Assembly: GCA_963921795.1 (NCBI GenBank) | Contig: OY997651.1 | Location: forward strand, 42,679,856-42,743,855 | Direction: 5' to 3' | Source: Nannobrachium achirus | Taxonomy: Eukaryota; Chordata; Actinopteri; Myctophiformes; Myctophidae | Length of the DNA: 64,000 nucleotides | In this document: positions 1-61,287 of the stretch, piece by piece | How the letters are laid out: the number at the start of each line of letters is the position of its first letter | How positions within the stretch are numbered: position 1 is the stretch's first letter | Notes under the pieces: generated by a model | Seen by the model: only the letters and a program-made list of their open reading frames with translations | The model's database searches: none | What the model was told of the DNA's origin: nothing | Translations under genes and position numbers: made by a program

Positions 1-651
1 TCCTGAGCCATGACTGTGCAGGCCACTCCAATGCCTCCCTTTATAAGCAGTGTGACATGCTCATTGGGGGGAGGAAGTGGGAACAGGCCAGCCACTCACA
101 GAGTCAGATCAGAAACAATGGGGTTTACAGCTAAAAAGCTCCCATAGATACCAAACTAGCTAACTCAGTACAATTGCAAACTACCTTAATCACCTGAGAG
201 TTATACAGAACTAGCTAACTCAATACAATTGCAAACTACCTGTAAGCTCTAAATCAATGAAAGCTTCTAAATGTTAAAGTAATCACCTGAGAGTTTCCAG
301 CTGTGCTCCATGTGTCCCTCCTGAGCCATGACTGTGCAGGCCACTCCAATGCCTCCCTTTATAAGCAGTGTGACATGCTCATTGGGGGGAGGAAGTGGGA
401 ACAGGCCAGCCACTCACAGAGTCAGATCAGAAACAATGGGGTTTACAGCTAAAAAGCTCCCATAGATACCAAACTAGCTAACTCAGTACAATTGCAAACT
501 ACCTTAATCACCTGAGAGTTATACAGAACTAGCTAACTCAATACAATTGCAAACTACCTGTAAGCTCTAAATCAATGAAAGCTTCTAAATGTTAAAGTAA
601 TCACCTGAGAGTTTCCAGCTGTGCTCCATGTGTCCCTCCTGAGCCATGACT
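1..651. repeat. 318-bp tandem duplication, ~2.05 copies
   Basis: Two full copies (1-318, 319-636) look identical by eye, and a third begins at 637 and stops after about 15 bases. Each unit contains two shorter related blocks (around 163-197 and 212-243) sharing ACTAGCTAACTCARTACAAT. The window starts inside the array, so it may extend to the left. No coding potential is seen. Confidence 0.95.
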
Positions 652-39036: not shown

Positions 39037-39178
39037 GGTGATGTAATATGGCTACACACACACACATATTGCTATGGCAAAACGCTGAGGAAAACACATT
39101 GCTATGGCAAGACGCTGAGGAAAAGTGGCTACAGATAGTGGCTACAGATAATTGGTGATGTAATATGATGTAATATGG

Positions 39179-39220
<42 letters not shown>

Positions 39221-39498
39221 TTCTATGGCAAAACGCTGAGGAAAACACATTGCTATGGCAAAACGCTGAGGAGAAGTGACTACAGATAGTGGCTACAGAT
39301 AATTGGTGATGTAATATGATGTAATATGGCTACACACACACACACACACACATATTGCTATGGCAAAACGCTGAGGAGAAGTGACTACAGATAGTGGCTA
39401 CAGATAGTTGGTGATGTAATATGATGTAATATGGCTACACACACACACACACACACATATTGCTATGGCAAAACGCTGAGGAAAAGTGGCTACAGACA
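39037..39498. repeat. Minisatellite, ~105-150-bp units containing CA tracts
   Basis: Units start at GGTGATGTAATATG (about 39036, 39153, 39303, 39409) and contain TGGCTACACACAC(AC)n, TTGCTATGGCAAAACGCTGA and GTGGCTACAGATAG. Unit length varies mainly with the CA tract (about 5 to 18 AC). Confidence 0.9.
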
Positions 39499-39839: not shown

Positions 39840-40023
39840 GATGTCAGGGGAAGAAATCCTTTTTATGCCCATATATGGAGATCCCTGTGATGCCAGGGGA
39901 ACCAAATCCCTTTTATGCCCATATACCTGTATGGAGATCCCTGTGATGCCAGGGGAACCAAATCCCTTTTATGCCCATATACCTGTATGGAGATCCCTGT
40001 GATGCCAGGGGAACCAAATCCCT
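39840..40023. repeat. 56-bp tandem repeat upstream of the zinc-finger exon
   Basis: Copies of GATGCCAGGGGAACCAAATC plus TTTTATGCCCATATA and GGAGATCCCTGT at 39840 (49 bp, diverged), 39889, 39945 and a partial one at 40001. The TTTTATGCCCATATATGGAG word also occurs at 54713-54731. Confidence 0.9.
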
Positions 40024-40188
40024 GGTGGTGATGTCATATTGATGACGTCACTCTTGCCCAAACATGGAGGGGTGTCAGCCTGCGCACATCGGTGTTGTCA
40101 GACATGCACGGCAACCGGTTGCGTTGTGAGTGAGGTCAGACCAGAGCTCTGCTAAGCATGTATAAGATTTGAAAATATATGTTTTTAA

Positions 40189-40206
40189 TTCCACTTCATT
40201 CCACAG
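40189..40206 (+). promoter_or_regulatory. Possible 3' splice site before the zinc-finger exon
   Basis: A pyrimidine-leaning stretch ending CTTCATTCCACAG precedes AGAGTATTTGGTG. If used, the zinc-finger exon would start at 40207, but the frame of the open region has an upstream stop (40322-40324), so coding upstream of the ATG in this exon is excluded. Confidence 0.3.
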
Positions 40207-40330
40207 AGAGTATTTGGTGTCCTACCCAGAATTGTAAGAGAAGGAGAAAGACAGCCTAGTGATTCAGAAAGAGGATAAATAAATTGTCCGTTACCCAACA
40301 GAACCCAAAACTCTGTCCCTATAACAGTCC

Positions 40331-41305
40331 ATGTATAGATGCAGATGTCATGATAAACCGCCACTTCAGGAAGGAGTGTGCTCTCTATCTTCCCAGACTA
40401 AGATCTGTACATACTTCACATCTCAATTGAGTCATGATGACCTATACTGCCAAATGCCCATAAATGGACAGATCCCCTCAGAATCCTTACAGCAAATCAC
40501 CAGACTTGTAACCGGCCAGGAACAAGGAGACACAGACGGAACAAGATCTTACAGTCATCAAAAGTTCATTAAGACTTTAACTCAACCAGGAGAAGTGAAG
40601 ACACGTCAGCTGACTTATGCAGGGAAGAAAACTCACATCTGTAAACAGTGTGACAAGAGTTTCAGTACGTCAAGTCACCTGGAGAGTCACCAGCGTATCC
40701 ACACAGGAGAAAAACCTTTTCTCTGTAAAGAGTGTGACAAGAGGTTCAGTCAATTATGTAACCTGAAGATTCACCAGCGTATCCACACCGGAGAAAAACC
40801 TTTCTATTGTCAACAGTGTGACAAGGCTTTTAGTCGGTTAGAACAACTGAAGAATCACCAGCGTATCCACACCGGAGAAAAACCTTTTCTCTGTAAAGAG
40901 TGTGACAAGAGTTTCAGTCTGTTAAGTATCCTGAAGATTCACCAGCGTATCCACACCGGAGAAAAACCTTTTCTCTGTAAAGAGTGTGACAAGAGTTTCA
41001 GTCACTTATGTAACTTGAAGAGTCACCAGCTTTTACACACTGGGGAAAAAGCTTTCTATTGTCAGCAGTGTGGCAAGGCTTTTAGTTGTTTAGGTTACCT
41101 GAACAAACACCAGCTTATCCACACAGAAGAAAAAGCTTTCTATTGTCAACAGTGTGACAAGGCTTTTACTTGTTTAGGTTACCTGAGCAAACACCGGCGT
41201 ATCCACACAGGAGAAAAACCTTTCTATTGTAAACAGTGTGGCAAGGCTTTTAGTCGGTCAGATGAACTGAAGATTCACCAGCATATCCACACAGGAGGTG
41301 GTTAA
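40331..41305 (+). CDS. Eight-finger C2H2 zinc-finger protein
   Basis: This 324-residue frame is the one convincing protein-coding exon in the window. Residues 1-101 have no recognisable KRAB, SCAN or BTB domain. Residues 102-321 form eight contiguous 28-residue C2H2 fingers (CxxC...HxxxH) with TGEKP(F)-type linkers, typical of sequence-specific DNA-binding nuclear proteins. Predicted contact residues (-1,2,3,6) are T-S-H-S, Q-C-N-I, R-E-Q-N, L-S-I-I, H-C-N-S, C-G-Y-K, C-G-Y-K and R-D-E-I. Fingers 6 and 7 are near duplicates; the 6-to-7 linker is HTEEKA. The start is the first ATG after an in-frame TAA at 40322, with a weak context (T at -3, T at +4). The frame ends HTGGG-stop, cut mid-linker where a tRNA-like SINE head begins. 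It may be the last exon of a gene whose upstream exons I cannot see, or a truncated paralogue. The target is unknown. Confidence 0.85.
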   Translation: MYRCRCHDKPPLQEGVCSLSSQTKICTYFTSQLSHDDLYCQMPINGQIPSESLQQITRLVTGQEQGDTDGTRSYSHQKFIKTLTQPGEVKTRQLTYAGKKTHICKQCDKSFSTSSHLESHQRIHTGEKPFLCKECDKRFSQLCNLKIHQRIHTGEKPFYCQQCDKAFSRLEQLKNHQRIHTGEKPFLCKECDKSFSLLSILKIHQRIHTGEKPFLCKECDKSFSHLCNLKSHQLLHTGEKAFYCQQCGKAFSCLGYLNKHQLIHTEEKAFYCQQCDKAFTCLGYLSKHRRIHTGEKPFYCKQCGKAFSRSDELKIHQHIHTGGG

Positions 41306-41484
41306 GACGTTAGACTTTCATGTGGGAGACCCGGGTACGAATCCTGGGCGTTAGTGCCGTGACCCGGATCAGGTTTCCCCGTGGGAGGACGTCTAATGGT
41401 GGCAGAGTGTAGCAGAGTGACTCACTGCCTCAGCCTGATGGCCTCAAAAGTATAGTATCCCCCCTGGTCCATAGGGATGTCCCT
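41296..41484 (+). mobile_element. tRNA-derived SINE fused to the zinc-finger exon
   Basis: AGGTGGTTAAGA (41296-41307) matches an A-box region and GGGTACGAATCC (41333-41344) is a B-box with one change. Between them is TTAGACTTTCATGTGGGAGACC. The body (GTGACCCGGATCAGG...GCCTCAAAAGTATAG) continues to a second tRNA-like head at 41485. The 5' and 3' arms do not pair as a tRNA acceptor stem, so this is a SINE and not a tRNA gene. Confidence 0.7.
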
Positions 41485-41556
41485 TTGGTCTAGTGGTTAA
41501 GATATTGGACTTTAACACGGGAGACCCGGGTTCGAATCCCGGGCGTTATACATGGC
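41485..41556 (+). mobile_element. Second tRNA-like SINE head
   Basis: GGTCTAGTGGTTAAGATATT holds an A-box-like word and GGGTTCGAATCCCGGG a perfect B-box and T-arm (41528-41543). The flanks GTCCCTT and GCGTTAT cannot form an acceptor stem. It is closely similar to the copy at 41296 but less mutated. Confidence 0.7.
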
Positions 41557-41847
41557 TGCCTGTTTTGTGCATCCAGTGCAGCCCAGTGTGAAGTAAACAG
41601 TGCTTTTTATGAGTTTAATGTGGCCTTTTTTTCCTTCTTTTTTGTTCTGTTCGCACTGTATCCAACTGCATCCAATACAGTTTCTGGTTGATTGTGGACA
41701 GTCCTTACTAATGTCCTTACTAATGTCCATTATAAGATGACGAGTACAAAGCGCAATATCCCCTCAGCCCAAACAAACTCACTGCCTTAACAGCTCAGCA
41801 GTAGAAATGTTGGCACTCGTGCGGAGACGCGGGTGCAAGGTTTAGGT

Positions 41848-42345
41848 CTAGGGATGGACCGATGTGGAAATCTTTGGCCGATACTGATACCTATGTTTAA
41901 AATAACAATTGAACCGATAACCGATACTGATACTGATATTTTTTGTATTTATTTTCCCCTTTTGTGCCACGGGAACATCTTCATTATAAGAAATAACTAT
42001 TAAGAATCTACAGCTTGGTAGGCTACAGATAACAAATACACCAACATGTATGCTTATCAACAACAGATGAATATCGGCTACTGCCATCGGTTAATGTCAG
42101 CTTTATTTGACGATACCGATATTGACCGAAAACTGCAAAAAAAATCTGACTTATACCACTTAAACCCTATTTAGGACATAAATGTTACGCGAATGCAGCC
42201 GAAATTACTTTGTCGTTCAGCGACGTTGCTTATTAAAAACAGATGACTTACAAGCTCACACCATGTTGCTAGGGTCGGCTAATTCCGGCGAGCGTCCGGT
42301 CATATAAGAAAGTATAAATTTGGTTTAGGCCAATTTATCGGCCCA
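41848..42345. mobile_element. hAT-like MITE (TAGGGATGGACCGAT end)
   Basis: CTAGGGATGGACCGATGTGG starts a region with repeated CCGATACTGATAC and GATACCGATATTGACCG words, typical of a vertebrate hAT MITE class. A decayed cassette arm (TTACAAGCTCACACC) lies at 42249-42263. The right boundary is unclear. Confidence 0.5.
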
Positions 42346-42478
42346 GAATGTCTGTCTGCCAGGTAGCTGTTATGTGAAGTAGGGAGACTTTTTTTTTACC
42401 GTGTTACAGGCTTTTAATAGACGTGGCTCCAGCATTGTTAAGTGGGACATGCGAGGGACGAGTGCGCACGTCAAATGT

Positions 42479-42493
42479 CACCATTAACCTGCA
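42479..42493. repeat. 15-bp direct repeat, left of the foldback
   Basis: CACCATTAACCTGCA, identical to 53038-53052, on the outer side of the giant inverted-repeat structure. Confidence 0.8.
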
Positions 42494-42511
42494 CAGGGGC
42501 TGGTGTCAAGT

Positions 42512-42514
<3 letters not shown>

Positions 42515-42571
<57 letters not shown>

Positions 42572-42584
42572 GCGTGTGCGTGTG
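42515..42584. repeat. (GT)n microsatellite
   Basis: About 50 bases of GT then GCGTGT units. Confidence 0.97.
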
Positions 42585-42605
42585 TTAAATGGGACATAAT
42601 GAGTC

Positions 42606-42706
42606 CTTTTACTTTTGGTACTTTTAAGTACATTTTTATGCCAATACCTTTGTACTTTTTACTCAAGTACATTTTGAACACTGGACTTTTACTTACTGGA
42701 GTACTT
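42606..42706. mobile_element. ACTCAAGTAC-type MITE fragment
   Basis: TACTTTTAAGTACATTTTTA and TTTTTACTCAAGTACATTTT belong to the repeat class at 26315-26554. It abuts the foldback terminus directly. Confidence 0.5.
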
Positions 42707-42959
42707 CCCTTACCAAAAAGTAGTAAACTTCAAGTTTACTTTTCTAAGTATACTTAAGTCAACTTTGAGTATATTTCTTAAGTATACTTTAAGTACAAGT
42801 ATACTGATATTTATGTACAAGTAGTATACTAACAAATGTACTAGTTAGTGTACTAGTTAGTATACTTACAGTATACCTACCGTACTAAAAGTAATCTGAA
42901 TTGGCCCACTTTTGAGTATACTCGAGTAAACTCTAAGTTTACTTAAAGTATAAATGAAG

Positions 42960-45900
42960 TATATATGAGTATACTTAAATTATTGTATTCATACACTAGA
43001 ATTGTGCTATTCCCTTACTTAAAATAAACCATTCATATACTCAGATGTATACTTAAGTGCACTACTTATTTACTTGAATTGCACTTCTCTTATACGAGAG
43101 GTATACTATGGTCATACTTGAACTGCACTACATTTAAATTTGAAGTATACCATTTATATACCTAAAACATACTATGCGTGAACTTAATGTACACTACTCT
43201 TTTACCTGCAGTGTACTTGAATAGCACTTTTATTGTACTTGAGGTATACTAAGGTCATATGAACTGCACTACTTGTAACCTTGAAGTATACCATTTATAT
43301 ACTCAAACTATACTATGCATGAACTTAATGTGCACTACTCTTTTACCTCTAGTGTACTTGAATTGCACTTTTCTTATACATGAGGTATACTACGTTTATA
43401 TTTGAACAGCACTTTTTTCATACTTGACGTATACCATTTATATAGTCGGAACATACTATGCATGAACTTAATGTACACTACTCTTTTACCTGCAGTGTAC
43501 TTGAATTGTACTACGTTTACATTTGAACAGTACTATTTCATACTTGAAGTATAACGGTTATATACTCAAAACATACTATGCGTGGACTTAATGGACACTA
43601 CTCTTTTACTTGAATTGCACTATTCTTATACTTGACGTATACTACGTTTATATTTGAATTGCATTAATTTTAAACTTGAAGTATACCATTTATATACTCA
43701 AAACATACTTGATGTACACTACTCTTTTACTTGCAGTGCACTTGAATTGCACTTTTCATTTACTTGAGGAAGACTTTGGTCATACTTGAATGGGACTTTT
43801 CTTTTACTTGAGGTATACTATGGTCATAATTGAACTGCACTACTTTTAAACTTGAAGTACACCATTTATATACTCAAAACATACTGTGCGTGAACTTAGT
43901 GTACACTACTCTGTTACTTGCAGTGCACTTGAATTGCAATTTTCATTTACTTGAGGTATACTATGGTCATACTTGAACTGCACTACTTTTAAACTTGAAC
44001 CATACCAGTTATATACTCAAAACATACTATGCGTGAACTTAATGTACACTACTCTTTTACTTGCAGTGCACTTGTCTTATACTTGACGTAAACTACGTTT
44101 ACATTTGAACTGCACTATTTTCATACTCGAGGTATGCCATTTATATACTCAAAACATACTATGCGTGATTTTAATGTACACTACTCTTTTACCTGCAGTG
44201 CACTTGAATTGCACTCTTCTTTTACTTGAGGTATACTATGGTCATACTTGAACTGCACTACTTTTGAACTTGAACCATACCAGTTATATACTCAAAACAT
44301 ACTATGCGTGAACTTCATGGACACTACTCTTTTAATTGAATTGCATTATTCTTATACTTGAGGTATACTATGGTCATACTTGAACTGCACTACTTTTAAA
44401 CTTGAAGTATACCATTTATATACTCAACACATACTATGCGTGTACTTAATTGACACTACTCTTTTACTTGAACTGCACTTGTTTTATACTTGACGTAAAC
44501 TGTGTTTATATTTGAACTGCACTATTTCCATACTCGAGGTATACCATTTATATACTCAACACATACTGTGCATGAACTTAATGTACACTACTATTTTACC
44601 TGCAGTGTACTTGAATTGAACGTTTCTTATACTTGAAGTATACCAGTTATATACTCAAAACATACTAGGCGGGAACTTAATGGACACTACTCTTTTACTT
44701 GCATTGTACTTGAATTGCACTTAGCTTATACTTTACATATACTATGTGTATATTTGAACTGCACTATTTCTATACTCGAAGTATACCATTTATATACTCA
44801 ACACATACTGTGCGTGAACTTAATGTTCACTACTCTTTTACCTGCAGTGCACTTTAATTGCTATTTTCTTATACTTGAGGTATACTATGGTCATACTTGA
44901 ACTGCACTACTTTTAAACTTGAATCATACCATTTATATACTCAAAACATACTGTGCGTGAACTTAATGTACACTACTCTTTTACCTGCAGTGCACTTGAA
45001 TTGCACTCTTCTTTTACTTGAGGTATACTATGGTCATACTTGAACTGCACTACTTTAAAACTTGAAGTATACCATTTATATACTTAACACATACTATGCG
45101 TGTACTTAACTGACACTACTCTTTTACTTGAACTGCACTTGTTTTATATTTGACATATACTACGTTTATATTTGAACTGCACTATTTCCATACTCGAGGT
45201 ATACCATGTATATACTCAACACATACTGTGTGTGAACTTAATGTTCACTACTCTTTTACCTGCAGTGCACTTTAACTGCTCTTTTCTTATACTTGAGGTA
45301 TACTATGGTCATACTTGAACTGCACTACTTTTAACTTGAATCGTACCATTTATATACTCAAAACATACTGTGCGTGAACTTAATGTACACTACTCTTTTA
45401 CTTGCTGTGCACTTGTCTTATACTTGACGTAAACTGTGTTTATATTTGAACTGCACTATTTCCATACTCGAGGTATACCATTTATATACTCAACACATAC
45501 TGTGCATGAACTTAATGTTCACTACTCTTTTACCTGCAGTGCACTTTAATTGCTCTTTTCTTATACTTGAGGTATACTATGGTCATACTTGAACTGCACT
45601 ACTTTTAAACTTGAATCGTACCATTTATATACTCAAAACATACTGTGCGTGAACTTAATGTACACTACTCTTTTACTTGAATTGCACTATTCTTATACTT
45701 GAGGTATACTATGGTCATACTTAAACTGCACTACTTTTAAACTTGAAGTATACCAGTTATATACTCAAAACATACTAGGCGTGAACTTAATGGACACTAC
45801 TCTTTTACTTGCATTGTACTTGAATTGCACTTAGCTTATACTTGACATATACATATATTGACATATAGTTCAAATGTATATTTGAACTGCACTATTTGTA

Positions 45901-46415
45901 TACTCGAAGTATACCATTTATATACTCAACACATACTGTGCGTGAACTTAATGTTCACTACTCTTTTACCTGCAGTGCACTTTAATTGCACTTTTCTCAT
46001 ACTTGAGGTATACTATGGTCATACTTGAACTGCACTATTTTCATACTCGAAGTATACCAGTTATATACTCAAAACATACTATGCGTGAACCTAATGTACA
46101 CTTGCTGTGTACTTGAATTGCACTTTTCTTATATGTGAGGTATACTACTTTCATACTTGAAATGCACTATTTTATTACTTGAAGTATACCATTTATATAC
46201 TCAAAACATACTATGCATGAACTTAATGTACACTACTCTTTACCTTGCAGTGTACTTGAATTGCACGTTTTTTTATACTTTACGTATACTACGTTTATAC
46301 TTGAACTAGACTATTTTCATGCTTGAAGTATACCATTTATATACTCAAAACATTGAATTGCACTTTTCTTATACTTGAGGTATACTATGTTTATACTTGA
46401 ACTGCACTATTTTCA
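42960..46415. repeat. Left-arm tandem array, ~140-bp units
   Basis: About 23 diverged units spaced 100-190 bases (for example at about 43194, 43334, 43478 and 43598). Each has CATACTATGCGTGAACTTAA, TGTACACTACTCTTTTAC, CAGTGCACTTGAATTGCACT, TTATACTTGAGGTATACTA, TGGTCATACTTGAACTGCAC and AAGTATACCATTTATATACT. Units differ by deletion of whole sub-blocks, so order is conserved while length varies. Confidence 0.92.
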
Positions 46416-46993
46416 TTGTAGCGACGGGGTGCAACTAATTAATATTCGAACACAGTTCTGCATAGGTATTTTAATGGTTAAAGAAAGACAGAGTGTGAAA
46501 TATTATAGCTTTGGAAATGGAGGACTGTATATTCTGGAGTTGAGGTTATGCCGACCACAGGGCTCCAGTCAAAGAGCAGTAATCAATGATGACACTAGTT
46601 GTTTTATGTGGTTTTTATAAAGGAGGTAGTTGGTGGACACAAACATACACAATGATGAATGGTATCTGAAAATATAGAAATAATACATAAGGATAAGGAG
46701 ACAATAAACAATATGCAGTAGTAACACAAACATAGCATATTACTGAAATGCCATGCACTCATGTGCCAGCTTAGACCCAGCATGCACTCACACACAGGTT
46801 AGACTAGGGCCTGTTAGCTTAGCCACTGAAGTTTAGCTAGCAAACACAATTACAAAAACAAACTTTTTAAACCACACACAGATCAATTCTGACACAATGA
46901 ACTGTTACCACATGAACCATTATTGCTCTGCAGGACAGAACTCACTTTGTCAAGAACGCATTCTTATGTGCATATGTTTGTGTGTGGCTGCAC

Positions 46994-47080
46994 TCATGCA
47001 TGTAAACAGTTGGGGGAATGTTTGGTGTTGCTGAACTGTCTGTAGATTTCACTCTGAATGTGTAGACTTGCCGGTCCCAT
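46994..47080 (-). other. 28-residue frame, left-arm twin of 47694-47849
   Basis: It starts MGPASLHIQS like its right-arm twin and diverges after residue 20 (HSPNCLHA) through an indel, so the peptide is not conserved between arms. It could be a remnant of a former exon. No domain is recognised. Confidence 0.25.
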
Positions 47081-47277
47081 TATACACCTACAAATGAACA
47101 GATAAAGCACATTAGTTATGGGAGTCAACAGTAGTAATATACTTTGAATTGACAAGTAGAATACTCAAGATTTGTGAAGATAATGTAAAGCTGTTATTTG
47201 TAAAACCCTTACCTTTGTCTGTCTCCTCCTCCCAGGGTGGTGTTCGGGCAAAAGAGTTCCCTCCGGGAACACGCACA

Positions 47278-47286
47278 CTATTTATA
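47278..47286 (-). promoter_or_regulatory. TATA box, left arm, firing outward
   Basis: TATAAATAG on the minus strand. About 30 bases downstream on that strand come CCGGAGGGAACTCTTTTGCC and CGAACACCACCCTGGGAGG, then a consensus-like 5' splice site AAAG-GTAAGG. The same series is on the opposite arm. Confidence 0.5.
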
Positions 47287-47510
47287 GTCCTGGGAGGGTG
47301 AAGCCAAGTGGGGGGTGGATAGAGGGGAGATTGAAAATGATTCTAATGCATTTAATAATGTATGGTGGGTGTACACATTTAGTGGGCATAGTGGTAATTG
47401 GAGCATATCCATGTGCTAGTGTTTTAAGTACTTTTGTATTATTAAATGCATTAGAATCATTCTCAATCTCCCCTCTATCCACTTCCCACTTGGTTTCACC
47501 CTCCCAGGAC

Positions 47511-47519
47511 TATAAATAG
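47511..47519 (+). promoter_or_regulatory. TATA box, right arm, firing outward
   Basis: TATAAATAG followed about 30 bases on by the same GC-rich leader as on the left arm, so the two boxes form a symmetric divergent pair about 225 bases apart. Confidence 0.5.
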
Positions 47520-47539
47520 GGTGTGTGTTCCCGGAGGGA

Positions 47540-47849
47540 ACTCTTTTGCCCGAACACCACCCTGGGAGGAGGAGAACATCAGACAAAGGTATTATCATCA
47601 CACATCTTGGCATTCTACTTGTCAATTCAAAGTATATTACTACTGTTGACTCCCATAACTAATGTGCTTTATCTGTTCATTTGTAGGTGTATAATGGGAC
47701 CGGCAAGTCTACACATTCAGAGTGAAATCTACAGACAGTTCAGCAACACCAAACCCCATCACCACCTTTATTGTCCCCATTTAGAGCAACTGTTTACATG
47801 CATGAGTGCAGCCACACACAAACATATGCACATAAGAATGCGTTCTTGA
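47540..47849 (+). other. Putative two-exon non-coding or short-ORF transcript
   Basis: Possible exon 1 ends at CAGACAAAG before GTATTATC (donor at 47589). A pyrimidine-rich TTTATCTGTTCATTTGTAG precedes a possible exon 2 at 47687. An ATG at 47694 opens 51 codons (starts MGPASLHIQS, His-rich later) to a stop at 47849. No domain is recognised. The left-arm twin has a better donor (GTAAGG) but a shorter, diverged frame. Inference only. Confidence 0.3.
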
Positions 47850-48380
47850 CAAAGTGAGTTGTTTTCTGTCCTGCAGAACAATAATGGTTCATGTGGTAAC
47901 AGGTCATTGTATCAGAATTGATCTGTGTGTGGTTTAAAAAGTTTGTTTTTGTAATTGTGTTTGCTAGCTAAACTTCAGTGGCTAAGCTAACAGGCCCTAG
48001 TCTAACCTGTGTGTGAGTGCATGCTGGGTCTAGGCTGGCACATGAGTGCATGGCTCATTTCAGTAATATGCTACATTTGTGTAGGTTACTACTGCATATT
48101 GTTTATTGTCTCCTTATCCTTATGTAGTATTTCTATATTTTCAGATACCATTCATCATTGTGTATGTTTGTGTCCACCAACTACCTCCTTTATAAAAAAC
48201 ACATAAAACGCCATCAAGTGTCATCATTGATTACTGCTCTTTGACTGGAGCCCTGTGGTGGGCATAACCTCAACTCCAGAGTATACAGTCCTCCATTTCC
48301 AAAGCTATAATATTTCACACTCTGTCTTTCTTTAACCATTACAATACTTATTAATTAGTTGCACCCCGTCGCTACAATGA

Positions 48381-51300
48381 AAATAGTGCAGTTCAAGTAT
48401 AAACATAGTATACCTCAAGTATGAGAAAAGTGCAATTCAAGTATGTTTTGAGTATATAAATGGTATACTTCAAGTATGAAAATAGTGCAGTTCAAGTATA
48501 AGCGTAGTATACGTAAAGTATAAAAAACGTGCAATTCAAGTACACTGCAAGTAAAAGAGTAGTGTCCATTAAGTTGACGCATAGTATGTTTTGAGTATAT
48601 AACTGGTATGGTTCAAGTTTAAAAGTAGTGCAGTTCAAGTATGACCATAGTATACCTCAAGTAAAAGAAGAGTGCAATTCAAGTGCACTGCAAGTAAAAG
48701 AGTAGTGTACATTAAATTCACGCATAGTATGTTTTGAGTATATAAATGGTATACTTCAAGTTTAAAATTATTGCAATTCAAATATAAACGTAGTATACGT
48801 CAAGTATAAGAATAGTGCAATTCAAGTAAAAGAGTAGTGTCCATCAAGTTCATGCATAGTATGTTCCGAGCATATAAATGGTATACTTCAAGTATGAAAA
48901 AAGTGCCGCTCAAATATAAACGTAGTATACCTCATGTATAAGAAAAGTGCAATTCAAGTACACTAGAGGTAAATGAGTAGTGCACATTAAGTTCATGCAT
49001 AGTATAGTTTGAGTATATAAATGGTATACTTCAAGGTTAAAAGTAGTGCAATTCAAATATAAACGTAGTATACGTCACGTATAAGAAAAGTGCAATTCAA
49101 GTAAAAGAGTAGTGTCCATTAAGTTCACGCATAGTACGTTAAAGTATAAACATAGTATACCTCAAGTATAATAAAAGTGCAATTTAAGTACATTCAAAGT
49201 AAAAGAGTAGTGTACATTACGTTCACACATAGTATATTTTCAGTATATGAATGCTATACTTCAAGTATGAAAATAGGGCAGTTCAAGTATAAACATAGTA
49301 TACGTCAACTATAAAAAACATGCAATTCAAGTACACTGCAAGTAAGAGAGTAGTGTACATTAAGTTCACACATAGTGTGTTTTGTGTATATAAATGGTAT
49401 ACCTAAAGTATAAGAAAAGTGCAATTCAAGTACACTGCAAGTAAGAGAGTAGTGTACATTAAGTTCACACATAGTGTGTTTTGTGTATATAAATGGTATA
49501 CCTAAAGTATAAGAAAAGTGCAATTCAAGTACACTGCAAGTAAAAGAGTAGTGTACATTAAGTTCACGCATAGTATGTTTGGAGTATATAATAGTGCAGG
49601 TCAAGTATAAACATAGTATACGTCAAGTATAAGAAAAGTGCAATTCAAGTACCCTGCAAGTAAAAGAGTAGTGTACATTAAGTTCACGCACAGTATGTTT
49701 TGAGTATATAAATGGTATACTTCAAGTATAAGAAAAGTGCAATTCAAGTGCACTGCAAGTAAAAGAGTTCTGTACAGTAAGTTAACGTAGAGTATGTTAG
49801 GAGTATTTAAATGGTATACTTCAAGTAAGAAAATAGTACAGTTCAAGTATAAACGTAGTATACCTCAAGTATAAGAAAAGTGCAATTCAAGTACACTGCT
49901 AGTAAAAGACTAGTGTACATTAAGTTCATGCATAGTATGTTTGGAGTATATAAATGGTATGGTGCAAGTTTAAAGGTAGTGCAGTTGAAGTATGACCATA
50001 GTATACCTCACGTATAAGAAAAGTGTAATTCAAGTTTAAAAGTAGTGAAATTCAAGTATAAATGTAGTATACGTCAAGTATAAGAAAAGTGCAATTCAAG
50101 TACACTGCAAATAAAAGAGTAGTGTACATTAAGCTCACGCATAGTATGTTTGGAGTATATAAATGGTATACCTCAAGTCTGAAAATAGTGCAGTTCAAAT
50201 ATAAACGTAGTATACGTCAAGTATAAGAAACGTGCAATTCAAGTACAATGCAAGTAAAAGAGTAGTGTCCATTAAGTTCACGCACAGTATGGTTTGAGTA
50301 TATAACTGGTATTCTTTAAGTATAAGAAAAGTGCAATTCAAGTACACTGCAGGTAAAAGAGTAGTGTCCAGTAAGTTCACGCACAGTATGTTTAGAGTAT
50401 ATAACCGGTATGGTGAAAGTTTAAAAGTAGTGCAGTTGAAGTATGACCATAGTATACTTCAATTATAAGAAAAGTGCAATTCAAGTACACTGCAAATACA
50501 AGAGTAATGTACATTAAGTTCAAGCATAGTATTTTTGTAGTATATAAATGGTATACTTCAAGTATAAGAAAAGTGTAATTCAAGTTTAAAAGTAGTGAAA
50601 TTCAAGTATAAATGTAGTATACGTCAAGTATAAGAAAAGTGCAATTCAAGTACACTGCAAATAAAAGAGTAGTGTACATTAAGCTCACGCATAGTATGTT
50701 TGGAGTATATAAATGGTATACCTCAAGTCTGAAAATAGTGCAGTTCAAATATAAACGTAGTATACGTCAAGTATAAGAAACTTGCAATTCAAGTACAATG
50801 CAAGTACAAGAGTAGTGTCCATTAAGTTCACGCACAGTATGGTTTGAGTATATAACTGGTATTCTTTAAGTATAAGAAAAGTGCAATTCAAGTACACTGC
50901 AGGTAAAAGAGTAGTGTCCAGTAAGTTCACGCACAGTATGTTTAGAGTATATAACCGGTATGGTGAAAGTTTAAAAGTAGTGCAGTTGAAGTATGACCAT
51001 AGTATACTTCAATTATAAGAAAAGTGCAATTCAAGTACACTGCTAATACAAGAGTAGTGTACATTAAGTTCAAGCATAGTATTTTTGTAGTATATAAATG
51101 GTATACCTCAAGTATGAAAATAGTGCAGTTCAAATATAAACGTAGTATACGTCAAGTATAAGAAACGTGCAATTCAAGTACAATGCAAGTAAAAGAGTAG
51201 TGTCCATTAAGTTCACGCACAGTATGGTTTGAGTATATAACTGGTATTCTTCAAGTATAAGAAAAGTGCAATTAAAGTACACTGCAGGTAAAAGAGTAGT

Positions 51301-52665
51301 GTCCATTAAGTTCACGCACAGTATGTTTAGAGTATATAACGGGTATGTTTCAAGTTTAAAAGTAGTGCAGTTGAAGTATGACCATAGTATACCTCACGTA
51401 TAAGAAAAGTGCAATTCAAGTACACTGCAAATACAAGAGTAGTGTACATTAAGTTCAAGCATAGTATGTTTGTAGTATATAAATGGTATACCTCAAGTAT
51501 GAAAATAGTGCAGTTCAAATATAAACGTAGTATACGTCAAGTATAAGAAACGTGCAATTCAAGTACAATGCAAGTAAAAGAGTAGTGTCCATTAAGTTCA
51601 CGCACAGTATGGTTTGAGTATATAACTGGTATTCTTCAAGTATAAGAAAAGTGCAATTCAAGTACACTGCAGGTAAAAGAGTAGTGTCCATTAAGTTCAC
51701 GCACAGTATGTTTAGTGTATATAACTGGTATGTTGCAAGTTTAAAAGTAGTGCAGTTGAAGTATGACCATAGTATACCTCATGTACAAGAAAAGTGCAAT
51801 TCAAGTTTAAAAGTAGTGAAATTCAAGTATAAATGTAGTATACGTGAAGTATAAGAAAAGTGCAATTTAAGTACCCTGTAAGTAAAAGAGTAGTGTACAT
51901 TAAGTTCACACATAATATGTTTTGTGTATAAATGGTATACCTCTAGTATAATAAAAGTGCAATTCAATTACACTGCAAGTGTACATTAAGTTCACGCATA
52001 GTATGTTTGGAGTATATAATAGTTCATTTCAAGTACAATCGTAGTATACGTCATGCATATTTAAAGTGCAATTCAAGTACCCTGCAAGTAAAAGAGTAGT
52101 GTACATTACGTTCACACATAGTATGTTTTGTGAAAATAAATGGCACACCTCAAGTATAAGAAAAGTGCAATTCAAGTACACTGCAAGTAAAAGAGTAGTG
52201 TCCATTAAGTTCACGCACAGTATGGTTTGTGTATATAACTGGTATTCTTCAAGTATAAGAAAAGTGCAATTCAAGTACACTGCAGGTAAAAGAGTAGTGT
52301 CCATTAAGTTCACGCACAGTATGTTTAGAGTATATAACCGGTATGGTGCAAGTTTAAAAGTAGTGCAGTTGAAGTATGACCATAGTATACCTCAAGTATA
52401 AGAAAAGTGCAATTCAAGTACACTGCAAATAAAAGAGTAGTGTACATTAAGTTCACGCATAGTATGTTTGTAGTATATACATTTTGTGTAAATAAATATG
52501 GTACCCCTCAAGTATAAGAAAAGTGCAATTCAAGTACACTGCAAGTAAAAGAGTAGTGTACATTAAGTTCACGCATAGTGTGTTTGGAGTATATAAATGG
52601 TATACTTCATGTATGAAAATAGTGGAGTTCAAGTATAAATCTAGTATACCTCAAGTATAAGCACT
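48381..52665. repeat. Right-arm tandem array, reverse-oriented units
   Basis: The complement of the left-arm units: GTAAAAGAGTAGTGTACATT, AAGTTCACGCATAGTATGTT, GAGTATATAAATGGTATACT, AAAATAGTGCAGTTCAAGTA, GTAGTATACGTCAAGTATAA, AAAAGTGCAATTCAAGTACA. It carries more recent higher-order duplications than the left arm. Short minus-strand frames here (repeating TLLLAVYLNCTFLI-like peptides) are array translations. Confidence 0.92.
50021..51110. repeat. 550-bp higher-order duplication
   Basis: 50021-50570 and 50571-51110 are nearly identical over long stretches (AAGTGTAATTCAAGTTTAAA at both starts), with few substitutions. It sits next to a 385-bp higher-order period (landmark CAGTTCAAAT at 50741, 51126 and 51511). 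Confidence 0.9.
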
Positions 52666-53037
52666 ACAGGTGCACAGTGTAGGGCAACTACCTTAAGCAG
52701 CCAGTGTGAGAAATATACAAGTATACACCCACAAGCCAGATACTGTATAAGAACACTCCATGTTGCATGCAGGCAGGTAGAACATTTTGATATACTTGTA
52801 CTAAGTACTATAGAATATAGGCTGCACTTGAAATGAAGGAAAAGTATACTTAAACTTTTGCTGTGTACTCGTCAGTATAAACTAAGTATACTTTTGTTAA
52901 GTATATTCCTGATAGTACATTTTAAGTAAACAGAAAAGTATACTTACCAAAGTATTAGTTTAGACAAAGTATACTTAGTTCATAACAAGTATACTCAGAG
53001 TATACGTAAGTATACTACTTTTTGGTAAGGGTTGTTC

Positions 53038-53052
53038 CACCATTAACCTGCA
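53038..53052. repeat. 15-bp direct repeat, right of the foldback
   Basis: CACCATTAACCTGCA, identical to 42479-42493. Confidence 0.8.
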
Positions 53053-53216
53053 GAGTGACTGAACTGCATCACATGGAGGTCTGAAGCAGAGTCGTAACAA
53101 AAGGTCAGATGAGTCATGTTCTTCTGTCTCCTGCTGGGCTATTCTTATATCTTTGTTCTTTTACAACACTCTGTGTCCTGTAGTCCCTCCTCTTCCTTTG
53201 TACAGTAGTCATAAGC

Positions 53217-53345
53217 CCCCTTTCCACCACACGGTCGAATCAGAACTAGAACCAGAGCTTTCCAGAACCAAGAACTTTCAAGAACCTGCAAAGTTCCGGG
53301 ACCCAAGTTCTGCTTGCGTTACTTTCCATATAACCAGACCTAACC
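53217..53345. mobile_element. CCCCTTTCCACC-type repeat fragment
   Basis: CCCCCTTTCCACCACACGGT followed by AGAACTAGAACCAGAGC and TTCCAGAACCAAGAAC words resembles a common teleost repeat. Only one end is visible. Confidence 0.4.
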
Positions 53346-53384
53346 GGGGGAAGGTCCCAAAAAAGAGCAGCAGCACGCCACACA

Positions 53385-53545
53385 TTGTGAGCTTGTAGAT
53401 GTCCCCTCAGAATAGGGAATATAGGGTTAAAGTGGCTAATGTAAAAGAAACGACATCCCTATCAGACAAACATTTGGTGGCCCCCCCTAAAGTAACTGTG
53501 TGGACCCCCGAGGGCTCCCGGACCCCTTGTTGAAGACCCGGTTAC
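53385..53545. mobile_element. Truncated hAT-like element (32011 family)
   Basis: ATTGTGAGCTTGTAGATG (cassette right arm) is followed by GGACCCCCGAGGGCTCCCGG and CTTGTTGAAGACCC, matching the right end of 32011-32429. The left half is absent. Confidence 0.6.
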
Positions 53546-53610
53546 ACATCTTCTTTCAGAAACATTGCCATTCAGAAGATTGACTTCCATTATTCTAAAT
53601 GGAGGTGTCA

Positions 53611-53642
53611 CCTAAACCTAACCTTAACCCTAACCCTAACCT
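53611..53642. repeat. Telomere-like (TAACCC)n patch
   Basis: CCTAACCTTAACCCTAACCC, a short degenerate interstitial telomere-like run of about four units, with short GGGGATGTTTCT/GGGGGTGTTTCT repeats after it. Confidence 0.6.
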
Positions 53643-53752
53643 CTGTGGGGGTATTTCTGAATGGGGATGTTTCTAAGTGGGGGTGTTTCTCAATGGAGGT
53701 CTGCCTAACCCTATCCTTAAATACAGTAAGATGTAAGAGACTAATAATAACT

Positions 53753-54137
53753 AAGGCTGGGACTTTAACTGATTAATTGCGATTAATTAATTACAGAAAA
53801 TTAACGCAATTAAAAAAATTAACGCATTTTAATCGCACTTAGTTTTTGCACCACAGAACCTTCAGTTTCGGGCATACCGATCATAGCAATGCACCAACCA
53901 AGAAGAGACAACAAACGCGAAGGGAGAAGTAGCCGACCAGAGCGCTTTGCTTGGCCCAGTGGATGCGAAATTTAGATTTAAAAAACTAACTTGTTGATTC
54001 ACTCGTACAACAAAATGTGTTTTACTTGAAAAAAAAAATGCTTCTCAGATCAAATATCGATGTGCGATTAATTGCGATTAATTAATCACAGAGCCTGTAA
54101 TTAATTAGATTACAATTTTTAATCGCATCCCAGCCCT
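53753..54137. mobile_element. hAT-like MITE with GATTAATT-rich ends
   Basis: AAGGCTGGGACTTTAACTGA and ATTTTTAATCGCATCCCAGC form inverted ends with sub-terminal GCGATTAATTAAT words. AATAATAACT is repeated directly on each side (53743-53752, 54138-54147), a 10-bp match that would contain the expected 8-bp duplication. No coding content. Confidence 0.8.
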
Positions 54138-54313
54138 AATAATAACTTAATGCAAAGTACTTCAAATGTGACCGCAGCGTTGCTAAATATGTCCGGTAAC
54201 GTTATTTACTACTTTCTTGTATTGTTTGATTGATTGGTCTCTTTATGAGACCTACCACGGCGTGTGATAAACAAAACTAGCAAAAAAATAATTTCCCGTA
54301 TGGTTGGCAGGTC

Positions 54314-54352
54314 TTGTCTGTGTGTGTGTGTGCGTGCGTGTGTGCGTGCGTG
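54314..54352. repeat. (GT)n/(GCGT)n microsatellite
   Basis: A short run of GT and GCGT units. Confidence 0.85.
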
Positions 54353-54712
54353 TCCCCGATTCAGTTAGTTTCAAAAGCACAATTTATTAGGGTCGTAAAA
54401 CCTCTCATGACTGATGGCTTGCATTAACAGGAGCCATCGATTAACGGTGTCCTTACACAGAACAGTGTTGACTTACATCTCTGCTTGGACAGCAGGCTGT
54501 GTCCTGAAGTGACCATGGTGTCACATCACAAGATGTCAACAAATGCATCGTTGCTGTTGGGGTAGAAACCTTGTGTCTTTACTATGAAAACCTGCAGCTC
54601 ATTTGCGTCAGTCACACCTCATGTCACGCTTATGACCAAGACAGAATGCATTTTCAAGTGTGATTCGCGTCACGGCTACCACACTTGCAAATTAATTCTG
54701 TCCTTGTCCCTT

Positions 54713-54925
54713 TTATGCCCATATATGGAGATCCCTGATGTCATGAATATTAAGCCCATATCTGGGAATGCCTCATATATGGACATATTGTGCCAGTCTC
54801 ATGATAACCATGTGGTTGTGGCGACGCAAATGAATTATGTCCCTGTCCATTTTATGCCCATATTAAGTATGGAGATCCCTCAATATTAAGCCATTTTTCT
54901 GGACTACCCATATATGGACATATTG
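54713..54925. repeat. Dispersed TTTTATGCCCATAT...GGAGATCCCT repeats
   Basis: TTTTATGCCCATAT with GGAGATCCCT occurs twice (54713, 54850) with CATATATGGACATATTG between and after. It is the same word set as the tandem repeat upstream of the zinc-finger exon. Confidence 0.65.
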
Positions 54926-54954
54926 TGTCAATCTCTGTTGTTTCAGCCCTTTAG

Positions 54955-54990
54955 GGCGAGGTCGCTTCGCGCCCTTAGGGCATCTTCCTG
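54955..54990. repeat. Imperfect 36-bp palindrome GCCCTTTAGGGCG...CGCCCTTAGGGC
   Basis: GCCCTTTAGGGCGAGG faces CGCGCCCTTAGGGC around GTCGCTT, and each arm is itself palindromic (GCCCTTAGGGC-like). Confidence 0.6.
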
Positions 54991-55167
54991 GTAATTTTTT
55001 TGTAAGGTCTCTCCACCTGAAAGTGATGATATAGACTGTTTTCTCAGAGCGGCGACCATAACTGCGGTGTCAAGCGGGACCTACCGTATGTGTGTGTGTG
55101 GCTGTGCGCCGACACCACAGCTACACAGCAGCGCTCTGGAAATTAAGGTCTATACCGTATATATCAG

Positions 55168-55330
55168 TGCATGTTCCCAAATCTTTTAGCTTGAGACCCA
55201 AAAGAGAGATTAGACGTTTGCCCGGGACCAAAACTAGTGAAAATAGACAACTACAAGCTCGCGTTGCGTCGTTTCGCGTTGTGTCGCGTCACTTTGTGAA
55301 TTTGTAGATCGGCTATTTTCACTACTCAAG
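55168..55330. mobile_element. Truncated hAT-like element (22542 family)
   Basis: GTTCCCAAATCTTTTAGC, TTAGACGTTTGCCCGGGACC and AACTAGTGAAAATAG match 22542-22975 in order. The cassette (55240-55325) has a longer loop with GCGTTGCGTCG/GCGTTGTGTCG iterations. The right half is missing. Confidence 0.65.
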
Positions 55331-55711
55331 CTTCGCTTAATGAAATTAACTCATCACGTAAATAGCACCGCTCATTTTTCCTTCACACCTTGACTTTCTG
55401 TCGTTCACATAAATCACTTCCTTCATTTTTTGGAAGTGTTACAGAGAAGGAAGTAGACACCATGCATGACTCACACACACTGGGGAGGCGTTGTTTCTTT
55501 AAAAAAAAAGTTACATATGCAGCGGTGGAAAAAAAGTTTTTTTTTAAGCTTTCCCAAAACAGTATTTTGATATTCATGCTAAAAAGAGACACTTTGAGGA
55601 CGACACACTGAAACGAGCATGGTTGACAGAATGCACCATTATTAGGGAGAGAAATGGAGGGAAAGACAGAGGGAATGAGAGAGAGAGAGGGCGAGAGTGA
55701 GTTAGAGTTAG

Positions 55712-55940
55712 TTTTAGAGTTGTTGTCGGGTGGAAACCTTGTATTCCAAAACCATTCGTTTTGTATTTATCATTTAAACTAGTGAAAACAGCCGATTTAC
55801 AGTGTGCTTGTAGATATGCTATTTTCACTTCTTTCGTGCAACTGTCTCGTATGATGAAGCAGGGCTTTACTTTATGAAAAAACGTACAAATTTGAAACTT
55901 GGAGATACGAGGTCTCTGCCCGACTGCGACGTTACGCTCT
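55712..55940. mobile_element. MITE family B copy with shortened cassette
   Basis: AGTTGTTGTCGGGTGGAAAC at the left and TCTGCCCGACTGCGACGT at the right are inverted ends of family B. The cassette (55785-55835) has lost most of its left arm. GATGAAGCAGGGCTTTACTT is present. Confidence 0.7.
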
Positions 55941-55959
55941 ATGCTCGCTGTAAACCAAA

Positions 55960-55984
55960 AAATAGCCGATCTACAAGCTCACAG
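55960..55984. repeat. Orphan left half of the palindromic cassette
   Basis: ATAGCCGATCTACAAGCTCA without the opposite arm, next to the family B copy. Confidence 0.5.
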
Positions 55985-56357
55985 CCTGTCATAGAGATCA
56001 AAATCTCTGAAAAAAAAAAAGTTTTTTTTTTCAGCCGGTGACACTGCAGTACATGGCGAAGTCTAAACGAGTTTTTACAGTAGAAGGTGGAGGGAGAGAT
56101 TTGTGGCGACGGAGTCACAGAAGAAGACCATGATTCACTGCAGAGCTGGATGAGAGGAGACGCGGGAGAGACAGGAGTATATGGGCTGAGATTTAGAGAG
56201 AGTGGATGGAAGAGCGGGCGAGAGAGCAGTGGTTTGAATGGTGAAAGGAGAGAGAGTGTTAAGGAGGTATAGACAGGGAGGATAGAAGAGAAGTCAACGT
56301 CAAGGATGTCTCAGTGAGACGCCATAAAACACTGTCTCATTCTGCTGCTGTCACCAC

Positions 56358-60494: not shown

Positions 60495-61287
60495 GCGACC
60501 GTCAGGTCGCACTTACTACCAAAACCTCCACCGGCTGTCTGTCTGTCCGTCTGTCCGTCTGTCCGTCCCTCCGTCACACGTCACACGTCACACTTTTGCC
60601 CTGCTCATATCTCCGCAACCGTTGCCCCGATCCATGCCAAATTTTGCACACATACTCCTTGCCTGCCATCAATTCTCACATGGCCCTCTTCTAGCGCCAC
60701 CATGAGGCCGATTCTTGAAAAACACATTTTTGGACACTGCTCCTACAATTTTTGCCCTAAAATCACGCAAATTACAATCATCTCATCAACATGGATATGT
60801 CCCATTTAGCGCCACCTTCAGGCCGATTTTTTAAAAACATTTTTGGACACTGCTCCTACAAATTTTGCCCTAAAATCACGCAAATCGGTACACACTTGCT
60901 CTACACTGATGTCATCAACATGGATCTGTCCCATTTAGCGCCACCTTCAGGCCGATTTTTAAAACACATTTTTGGACACTACTCCTACAGATTTTGCCCT
61001 AAAATCACGCAAATCGCTACACAGCATGTCTACACTCATGTCATCAAAATGGATCTGTCCCATATAGCACCACCATCAGGCAGATTTTTTCAAACACATT
61101 TTTGGACACTGCTCCTACAGATTTTGCCCTAAAATCACGCAAATCGGTACACAGTATGGCTACACTCATCTCATCAACATGCATCTGTCCCATATAGCGC
61201 CACCATCAGGCCGATTTTTACATACACATTTTTCCACACTTCTACACATTTTCGCCTAAAATCACGCTGTGACCTGACGGTCGCTTA
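60495..61287. mobile_element. MITE with GCGACCGTCAGGTC ends carrying a minisatellite
   Basis: GCGACCGTCAGGTCGC at 60495 and GACCTGACGGTCGC ending at about 61284 are inverted. Next to the left end lies a (CTGTCCGT)n run and an (ACACGTC)n run (60535-60594). Confidence 0.7.
60694..61265. repeat. ~129-bp minisatellite, about 4.5 units
   Basis: Units start at GCGCCACC (60694, 60809, 60938, 61067, 61197; spacing 115, 129, 129, 130). Each holds AGGCCGATTTTT, ACACATTTTTGGACACTGCT, TTTTGCCCTAAAATCACGCA and CATCAACATGGATCTGTCCC. Confidence 0.93.

Follow-up and report, generated by a model that had tools for sequence, protein, structure and literature searches.

A dispersed family of giant palindromic DNA transposons, apparently non-autonomous, in the fish Nannobrachium achirus

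In a 64,000-nucleotide stretch of the Nannobrachium achirus genome (assembly GCA_963921795.1, contig OY997651.1, positions 42,679,856 to 42,743,855; hereafter the window), tandem repeats run in opposite orientations on either side of an inverted core, forming a palindrome of about 10 kb. Is such a structure mobile DNA and, if so, what kind of transposon is it? As a rule, a non-autonomous DNA transposon is a MITE or a small deletion derivative. A preliminary description, made from the sequence alone, had proposed a giant foldback element with the architecture of Drosophila foldback/Galileo elements, moved by an outside enzyme. Window positions 42707–53031 turn out to be a single copy of a dispersed DNA transposon family, and the element is very probably (probability of roughly 0.85) a non-autonomous cut-and-paste transposon.

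Architecture of the window copy

The layout of the element is given in Table 1. As first described, perfect 19-bp inverted termini bound the element; they are of the CCCTTACC type and give the element its CCC..GGG ends. Beyond the terminus the A- and B-ends are dissimilar for ~345–350 bp, with only the outer 19–20 bp inverted, and the long inverted repeat is therefore internal. Each end is a distinct segment of ~365 bp that is rich in the palindromic decamer AAGTATACTT. Allowing ≤1 mismatch, the A-end contains eight such decamers and the B-end six, where a Markov model gives means of 0.17 and 0.16, respectively. Outside the element, the left member of a 15-bp repeat lies at 42479–42493.

Table 1. 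Features of the element and its immediate flanks, in window coordinates
Feature	Position	Strand	Remark
Target site duplication, left copy (TT)	42705..42706	+	flank read
19-bp terminal inverted repeat, A side	42707..42725	+	perfect; 141 exact genome copies
A-end: terminus and subterminal segment with 8 AAGTATACTT-like decamers (≤1 mismatch)	42707..43070	+	
Left array: 11-bp monomers, with higher-order units of 143, 132 and 275 bp	43071..46417	+	
Left core arm, 943 bp, in opposite orientation to right core arm	46418..47360	+	
Splice-donor-like CAGACAAAG/GTA, left arm	47210..47221	-	putative role
TATA-like box CTATAAATAG, facing outward (left)	47278..47287	-	putative promoter
Central spacer, 79 bp	47361..47439	+	
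Right core arm, 938 bp	47440..48377	+	
TATA-like box CTATAAATAG, facing outward (right)	47510..47519	+	putative promoter
Splice-donor-like CAGACAAAG/GTA, right arm	47580..47591	+	putative role
Right array: 11-bp monomers, with higher-order units of 143, 99, 242 and 385 bp; in opposite orientation to left array	48378..52661	-	
B-end: terminus and subterminal segment (6 AAGTATACTT-like decamers); unlike A-end	52662..53031	+	
19-bp terminal inverted repeat, B side	53013..53031	-	perfect
Target site duplication, right copy (TT)	53032..53033	+	flank read

The inverted arms of tandem units reported earlier do exist as two inverted arrays, but these long arms stop short of the ends of the element. 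Similarly, a repeat of 143 bp is present, close to the ~140 bp proposed, but it is a higher-order repeat of a much shorter monomer. The fraction of matching bases is 0.43 in the left array and 0.46 in the right array at lags that are multiples of 11, versus 0.27 at other lags, and the 143-bp unit is therefore 13 × 11. The 11-bp monomer contains the half-sites TACTT and AAGTA, as do the subterminal decamers. In the arrays the decamer AAGTATACTT itself is not enriched (0 and 2 matches versus 0.64 and 0.87 expected); enrichment is confined to the related TACTTNAAGTA pattern (78 and 117 matches versus 7.9 and 11.1). This makes the idea of transposase-binding sites weaker for the arrays than for the ends. 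The arrays change length mostly in 11-bp steps: gaps of ≥10 bp between copies are exact multiples of 11 in 53 of 78 instances, with the window copy taking part in every comparison, so that the gaps are not independent of one another.

Between the arrays lies a core with sharp ends (TGTAGCGAC..GTCGCTACA), consisting of an inverted pair of arms around a short spacer. The core was originally called unique; its inverted structure is as described, but it is unique within the window only.

In all, 81 frames of ≥45 codons overlap 42600–53100; the longest two, of 120 and 118 codons, are inside the right array. Pfam was searched with 12 of the element's frames (10 touching the core, two from the array), and the remaining frames were judged by eye. 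Eleven of the twelve lacked any match, and the single hit, to an array frame with an E value of 0.095, was read as chance because it fell below the family's cut-off. The claim that no transposase frame is visible thus holds for these 12 frames of the window copy. No protein homologues came up for either of the two frames searched, one from the array and one from the core, and Rfam gave no matches.

A dispersed family with a 2-bp target duplication

A genome search for the terminus and core had been suggested in the preliminary description. In the same 1.66-Gb assembly, the 19-bp terminus has 141 exact copies, a 32-mer of the spacer occurs at 76 places (≤1 mismatch), and an array word occurs at 549, while the reversed-pattern control of each search gave 0. 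Among the 100 termini listed (of 141), 80 form 40 inward-facing pairs with spacings of 6.9–18.8 kb, and 37 of these 40 pairs enclose the spacer. All 100 array matches listed (of 549) fall inside elements, and at least 52 of the 76 spacers are tied to a located A- or B-end among the best 40 matches listed per end. For the A-end, the best 40 matches scored (of 102 candidates) all have 99–100% identity. The order A-end, array, core arm, spacer, core arm, array, B-end is identical in the window and in nine more full copies, and the core sits between two arrays at all 11 loci read. The family numbers ~70–75 copies, which measure ~7–14 kb where they are free of nested insertions. Inside the three longest pairs (C3, C6 and C15), 250-bp samples lack any match to the element and have the appearance of nested insertions; the one from C15 had no Pfam match.

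Outside the arrays, seven copies differ by only 2–10 substitutions over 2,671–2,694 aligned sites, and the family has therefore moved recently. The two core arms within each of eight copies are separated by 25–28 substitutions in 903–918 sites plus 16–19 gaps, and these 25–28 substitutions are common to all eight, which speaks against a fold introduced by assembly.

Twenty-five insertions were read, at unlike sites but with common exact ends, and 49 of their 50 termini are perfect. Twenty of the 25 lie between exact 2-bp target duplications, which vary in sequence (a match expected by chance at about 1 in 16 each), no insertion has a 3-bp match in its flanks, and five are without matching 2-bp flanks. 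The duplication is TG in six of the matching insertions and TA in one of the 20. Dispersed copies with exact ends and a duplication of fixed length are what a non-autonomous TIR-type DNA transposon should show. The earlier view, of an element that is mobile, seemingly non-autonomous and foldback-like in its arms, is supported. A palindromic target-site consensus, hinted at by column counts, was dropped, as complementary pairs counted per site (39 of 160) did not exceed the shuffle mean of 44.8.

A joined-flank search of the genome for an empty site of the window copy gave 2,484 first-look candidates, and the 40 that were scored included no base-accurate empty site. Besides the window's own two pieces, the other 38 cover the left half only, one of them reaching 3 bases past the junction. 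This left half of the flank is a high-copy repeat that, in six small stretches, continues differently past the insertion point.

No transposase or autonomous partner was found in the genome among the candidates read. At ≤2 mismatches the terminus occurs at 182 places versus 15 for the control, leaving ~26 near-terminus sites above control beyond the 141 exact ones, and a terminus with a changed 16th base occurs at one place, versus one for its control. Of the three terminus pairs without a detected spacer, the pair at C1:55.4 Mb is an ordinary member of the family over the 1.8 kb of it that was read, and those at C2:7.04 Mb and C13:61.6 Mb contain core matches. Four lone exact termini among those listed have no listed spacer nearby (C7:71653130, C9:15450370, C9:22265360 and C10:19800253). 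Elsewhere, viral contigs gave no match for two patterns, and bacterial genomes gave one exact 19-mer, in a Chloroflexi record, which is probably a chance match.

Rival readings and placement among transposons

Inverted arrays can be mis-joined, and tandem repeat makes up most of the sequence here, such that the structure might be taken for a satellite with a palindromic layout, or for one array folded back in the assembly, with no transposon at all. Copies genome-wide exclude chance or artefact, however, and this reading is extremely improbable in view of 25 located insertions with shared ends. The possibility of a mere assembly join, raised at the outset, is contradicted indirectly by the arm differences fixed over eight copies; that of a core and arrays occurring as separate repeats is contradicted by the spacers inside terminus pairs and the array matches inside elements. 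The sharp ends of the core could also mark a separate transposon that landed in a palindromic array. This, too, is very doubtful, since a nested insertion would give direct rather than inverted flanks, and the inverted-repeat array runs on across both edges of a core that lies between arrays at every locus read.

If the element is a DNA transposon, to which superfamily does it belong? The P element duplicates 8 bp of its target and piggyBac duplicates TTAA. With only 2 bp duplicated, the element cannot belong to P/Galileo, Mutator, piggyBac, or TA-targeting Tc1/mariner. In the papers compared here, duplications are 7 bp for Galileo (PMC3573991) and 4–10 bp for MuDR/IS256 (Mutator) (PMC10045372), and piggyBac, which resembles the element in its CC..GG termini, makes duplications of 4 bp rather than 2 bp of varied sequence (PMC10045372). 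Teratorn of medaka, at 41–182 kb, is reported to carry a piggyBac transposase and herpesvirus genes, whereas the present element is ~10 kb with no recognised gene.

The Drosophila foldback elements come closer in form. Galileo shares long inverted arms with tandem repeats whose length varies between copies, and some of its copies have non-matching target flanks, there read as chimeras (PMC3573991); extra transposase sites have been proposed in its repeats (PMC3688188). Yet its repeat-bearing arms are the terminal inverted repeats themselves (18–1,250 bp in D. mojavensis; PMC3573991) and its transposase is known, whereas the fish element has internal arms with several kilobases of array per side, dissimilar ends outside them and no transposase found. 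Tetris of Drosophila virilis is likewise described as non-autonomous, with tandem repeats in its arms, a non-coding middle and an autonomous partner that was not found, but it has 8–10 bp duplications, ~220-bp repeats and three structurally complete copies (PMC4079207), versus dozens of copies and an 11-bp monomer here. The proposed foldback/Galileo architecture thus fails in detail. Despite the long arms and small non-coding middle, a member of that kind (P superfamily), or a foldback Mutator element, is most unlikely. The element works like a foldback element, yet it is not an FB/Galileo element.

Clustered subterminal repeats, as found at both ends here, are typical of CACTA elements, and a non-autonomous derivative of a CACTA/EnSpm-like (CMCT) or PIF/Harbinger-ISL2EU (PHIS) element has a little under an even chance of being the right placement. 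In the papers compared, CMCT lineages make 2–5 bp duplications (PMC12730594) and PHIS relatives 0–4 bp (PMC10045372), both of which include the observed length. Against this, most CMCT elements have CA..TG termini (PMC12730594) and not CCC..GGG, and there is no linked transposase. A more tentative alternative is that the mover belongs to an as yet undescribed transposase lineage, one that acts on CCCTTACC termini and leaves 2-bp duplications whose sequence varies. Taken together, terminus and duplication fit no superfamily compared by these published features, and the genome searches found no partner whose terminus is similar; still, a missing partner in one assembly is weak evidence, and the near-terminus sites above control also count against this idea. 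The letters of the terminus returned nothing from published papers, and titles and abstract openings mentioned no vertebrate element of such a kind. The word foldback occurs in PMC5638112 only within the reference list and is absent from the main text of a review of ray-finned fish (PMC7599744).

A possible mechanism and its significance

Whatever its superfamily, the apparently non-autonomous transposon combines 19-bp inverted termini, two unlike ends and a giant internal palindrome, and it moves as a whole. A transposase supplied in trans would recognise the terminus together with the subterminal palindromic decamers, excise the element and reinsert it with a 2-bp stagger. The arrays, with their half-site-bearing monomer, might represent an internal amplification of putative binding sites that recruit or retain the transposase, much as proposed for Galileo. 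The palindrome itself may have been born once, through an inverted duplication of one array and core arm, before the present copies spread. It is even conceivable, if rather unlikely, that the arrays on both palindrome arms, kilobases long and phased at 11 bp (about one site per helical turn), are transposase-binding sites that the element has multiplied from its own, and that it thereby outcompetes its autonomous partner for the enzyme, a transposase from an undescribed lineage whose 2-bp duplications vary in sequence. Such a hyperparasite would persist and spread though no partner with its terminus was found.

Though instability would be expected of such a structure, a 7–14 kb palindrome with no recognised gene has spread recently and intact to ~70–75 sites in one genome. 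Galileo is reported to have made Drosophila inversions via ectopic recombination (PMC4168063), and closely similar dispersed copies are substrates for this process. Moreover, the element is a natural test of whether amplified putative transposase-binding sites help an element to move, of how cells tolerate dispersed 10-kb palindromes, and of how tandem arrays grow inside mobile DNA.

Architecture of the element and distribution of its parts

The element is bounded by a perfect 19-bp inverted pair, CCCTTACCAAAAAGTAGTA, inside which lie two tandem arrays of opposed orientation (3,347 and 4,284 bp) and, mid-element, two inverted core arms, 943 and 938 bp long, flanking a 79-bp spacer. This confirms in the window what the preliminary description had observed of the termini, arrays and core. 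The core arms align with 890 of 1,003 columns identical (90 columns are gaps), and the mirror image extends from the core into the arrays, 92.6% identical for the first 300 bp and 87.5–89.2% over 600–2,000 bp, with growing gaps. The left and right terminal segments (A-end, 364 bp; B-end, 370 bp) are unlike past the first ~20 bp and form no mirror image.

Features of the window, in order of position
Feature	Position	Size or composition
Tandem repeat opening the window	1-651	318-bp unit x 2.0, 100% identity
Minisatellite	39054-39496	105/151-bp units
Open frame with C2H2 zinc-finger run	40325-41305	326 codons; Pfam zf-H2C2_2, zf-C2H2; ~1.4 kb left of the element
Direct repeat CACCATTAACCTGCA, left copy	42479-42493	15 bp
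Whole element	42707-53031	10,325 bp
Direct repeat CACCATTAACCTGCA, right copy	53038-53052	15 bp
Minisatellite	60773-61267	129-bp units

A search of the 1.66-Gb assembly, in which the window lies on contig C14 (42679856-42743855), with the core returned 109 pieces, mainly inverted pairs (best 40 of 177 candidates scored). Ten further loci were read, nine ranked high in that search plus one ranked lower (C6, 0.19 Mb), and nine of them carried both ends in the order of the window copy, at lengths of 8.3–14.1 kb. The copy at 53.0 Mb on C20 lacks the outer 6 bp of its A-end and was excluded from later counts. Lists of 40 A-ends and 40 B-ends gave at least 24 A/B pairs, spanning 6.9–13.9 kb.

The exact terminus is present in 141 places in the assembly (66 on the + strand, 75 on the -), the same pattern read backwards in none. 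Among 100 termini listed, 80 face inward in 40 pairs separated by under 25 kb (6.9–18.8 kb, median 10.7 kb) and 20 are single, two of these being explained by the end of the list or a mutated partner; no short, MITE-like terminus pair was found among the 100. A 32-mer of the spacer, at up to one mismatch, occurs in 76 places (reversed control 0) and is doubled in one element (C15, 32.2 Mb). Of the three terminus pairs without it, that at C1, 55.4 Mb, is an ordinary, more diverged copy, judging from 1.8 kb read, and the other two contain core matches. An array 28-mer occurs in 549 places (reversed control 0); 97 of the 100 matches listed lie within exact terminus pairs, and the remaining three in an element at C3, 0.19 Mb, with one exact terminus and the spacer. 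Its strand is + in the left half and - in the right in all 12 elements with listed matches in both halves, a thirteenth (C4) being only partly covered by those matches. Core and arrays occurring only as separate repeats would have refuted the preliminary description; this is contradicted by the listed array matches, all of which lie in elements, and by the spacer, which 37 of the 40 pairs contain. The first 100 termini fall into 60 loci, of which 13 are at most 2% away from a contig end, against 2.4 expected, and 26 at most 10% away, against 12.0; without C3, the counts are 11 and 24 of 56. This over-representation near contig ends, which assumes that contigs are chromosomes and loci independent, is a lead.

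Insertion sites and candidate mobilizing enzymes

Both flanks were read in 25 insertions, comprising the window copy, nine full copies and 15 pairs known by their ends only (the pair at C2, 7.04 Mb, stands outside this count). The 2 bp outside the termini agree in 20 of the 25 and 3 bp in none, and 49 of the 50 termini are perfect. The duplicated dinucleotides are TG (six), TT (five), AA and AC (two each), and GA, GT, CC, AG and TA (once each). This is what a DNA transposon leaves when it inserts with a 2-bp stagger and at no fixed target dinucleotide, and the many insertions with common ends and short duplications demonstrate a mobility that had previously been a guess. Flanks are unmatched in five insertions (C12, C5:64, C15, C14:48 and C8:62). 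That at C5:64 is located in a tetranucleotide repeat, and for the other four decay or recombination may be the cause, as has been argued for Galileo copies whose flanks are unlike (PMC3573991).

The left flank of the window copy is itself a high-copy repeat; the joined flanks gave 2,484 candidates at first look, of which the best 40 were scored. The CACCATTAACCTGCA pair brackets the element together with the repeat that received it, its left copy lying outside the high-copy repeat and its right copy six bases past the element. The simplest reading is that an earlier insertion made the 15-bp duplication and was itself later hit by the giant element; the pair would then tie both flanks to one original locus. 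The joined-flank search, at the best 40 candidates scored plus small stretches read, recovered no empty site. Elsewhere in the window, self-comparison gave no match between the two minisatellites and the element, and the 318-bp repeat may have been duplicated recently or may stem from the assembly.

The CCC..GGG terminus and varied 2-bp duplication give no clean fit to any superfamily compared. As described in PMC10045372 and PMC12730594, CMCT elements have duplications of 2–5 bp, which cover the 2 bp seen here, but mostly CA..TG ends; PHIS relatives, at 0–4 bp, also cover it; piggyBac has similar CC..GG ends but a 4-bp duplication; Tc1/mariner duplicates TA rather than a varied dinucleotide, and MuDR 4–10 bp. 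Tetris duplicates 8–10 bp and Galileo 7 bp, so that the foldback/Galileo comparison made in the preliminary description holds for foldback-like behavior but not for family membership. The likeliest mover is a CMCT- or PHIS-type enzyme, which would be supplied in trans; a transposase lineage so far undescribed is a possible alternative.

No autonomous partner was found in the assembly among the near-terminus variants and terminus pairs inspected. In the three longest pairs (17–19 kb, on C3, C6 and C15), 250-bp inner samples had no match to the element and look like nested insertions; the C15 sample, which had no Pfam match, holds an open frame that by eye we take to resemble a BEL/Pao-type polyprotein. 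Of 81 frames with 45 codons or more, twelve from the element were run against Pfam, namely ten that reach into the core and the two longest in the arrays. Eleven had no match, the twelfth, an array frame, had a sub-threshold match only (E 0.095), and no transposase-like frame was found among them; a frame from the array and another from the core, searched against the protein collection, had no homologues. Each core arm carries an outward CTATAAATAG, then a donor-like AAAG/GTA and an acceptor-like TTTGTAG/G, which could represent an outward promoter and first intron, perhaps the relic of a lost gene.

Repeat units, age and history of the palindrome

The arrays advance by an 11-bp step: at lags divisible by 11 the match fraction is 0.43 (left) and 0.46 (right), elsewhere 0.27. 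The strongest lags in the left array are 22, 143, 132, 44 and 275, and in the right array 143, 99, 242, 22 and 385. The ~140-bp repeat reported earlier is therefore present, not as the basic unit but as a 13 x 11 higher-order repeat, one among several. Comparisons of the window copy with eight others (the older copy on C24 excluded), all of which thus share the window copy, showed 78 array gaps of 10 bp or more, 53 of them exact multiples of 11. The palindromic decamer AAGTATACTT, at one mismatch or fewer, is dense in the A-end (eight sites) and B-end (six; Markov means 0.17 and 0.16) and without enrichment in the arrays, which hold 78 (left) and 117 (right) sites of TACTTNAAGTA, at up to two mismatches, against 7.9 and 11.1 expected. 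In the left core arm and the flanks at 40001-42600 and 53101-56000, neither motif is clearly above expectation. Since AAGTATACTT would arise at the joints of perfect tandem TACTTNAAGTA 11-mers, ends and arrays look like products of a single ancestral motif.

Because only 2–10 substitutions in 2,671–2,694 aligned sites (A-end, core and B-end) separate seven copies, the window copy included, the spread of this group is recent. An eighth copy (C2, 6.9 Mb) lies 22–28 substitutions from the others, the copies at C24 and C20, 53.0 Mb, have more diverged cores, and that at C6, 0.19 Mb, has a different core type. Within each of the eight copies, the core arms differ by 25–28 substitutions in 903–918 sites, with 16–19 gaps, and much the same old set of differences recurs in every copy, which argues that the palindrome predates their spread and was copied whole, without ongoing homogenization. 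An assembly fold is indirectly contradicted, since this would yield identical arms. The arrays of the copies compared are 98–99.6% identical once block gains and losses are permitted, yet among ten copies one side can be as short as 2.0 kb or as long as 7.2 kb; array size thus changes faster than substitution elsewhere.

At least three core types occur, and the center is reversed relative to the ends in five of the 52 spacers tied to an end (24 of the 76 have no such tie, partly since matching used the A- and B-ends listed). The five reversed copies (on C4, C6 at 9.2 Mb, C7, C16 at 2.4 Mb and C23) share one core type, are 98.5–99.5% identical to one another over aligned pieces, and show the 2-bp duplication in all five cases. 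The simplest reading is therefore a single inversion, afterwards spread as an inversion isomer, although the reversed orientation could conceivably be the ancestral state. Overall, the element is best called a non-autonomous DNA transposon that has been active recently, is built as a giant palindrome and duplicates 2 bp of its target.
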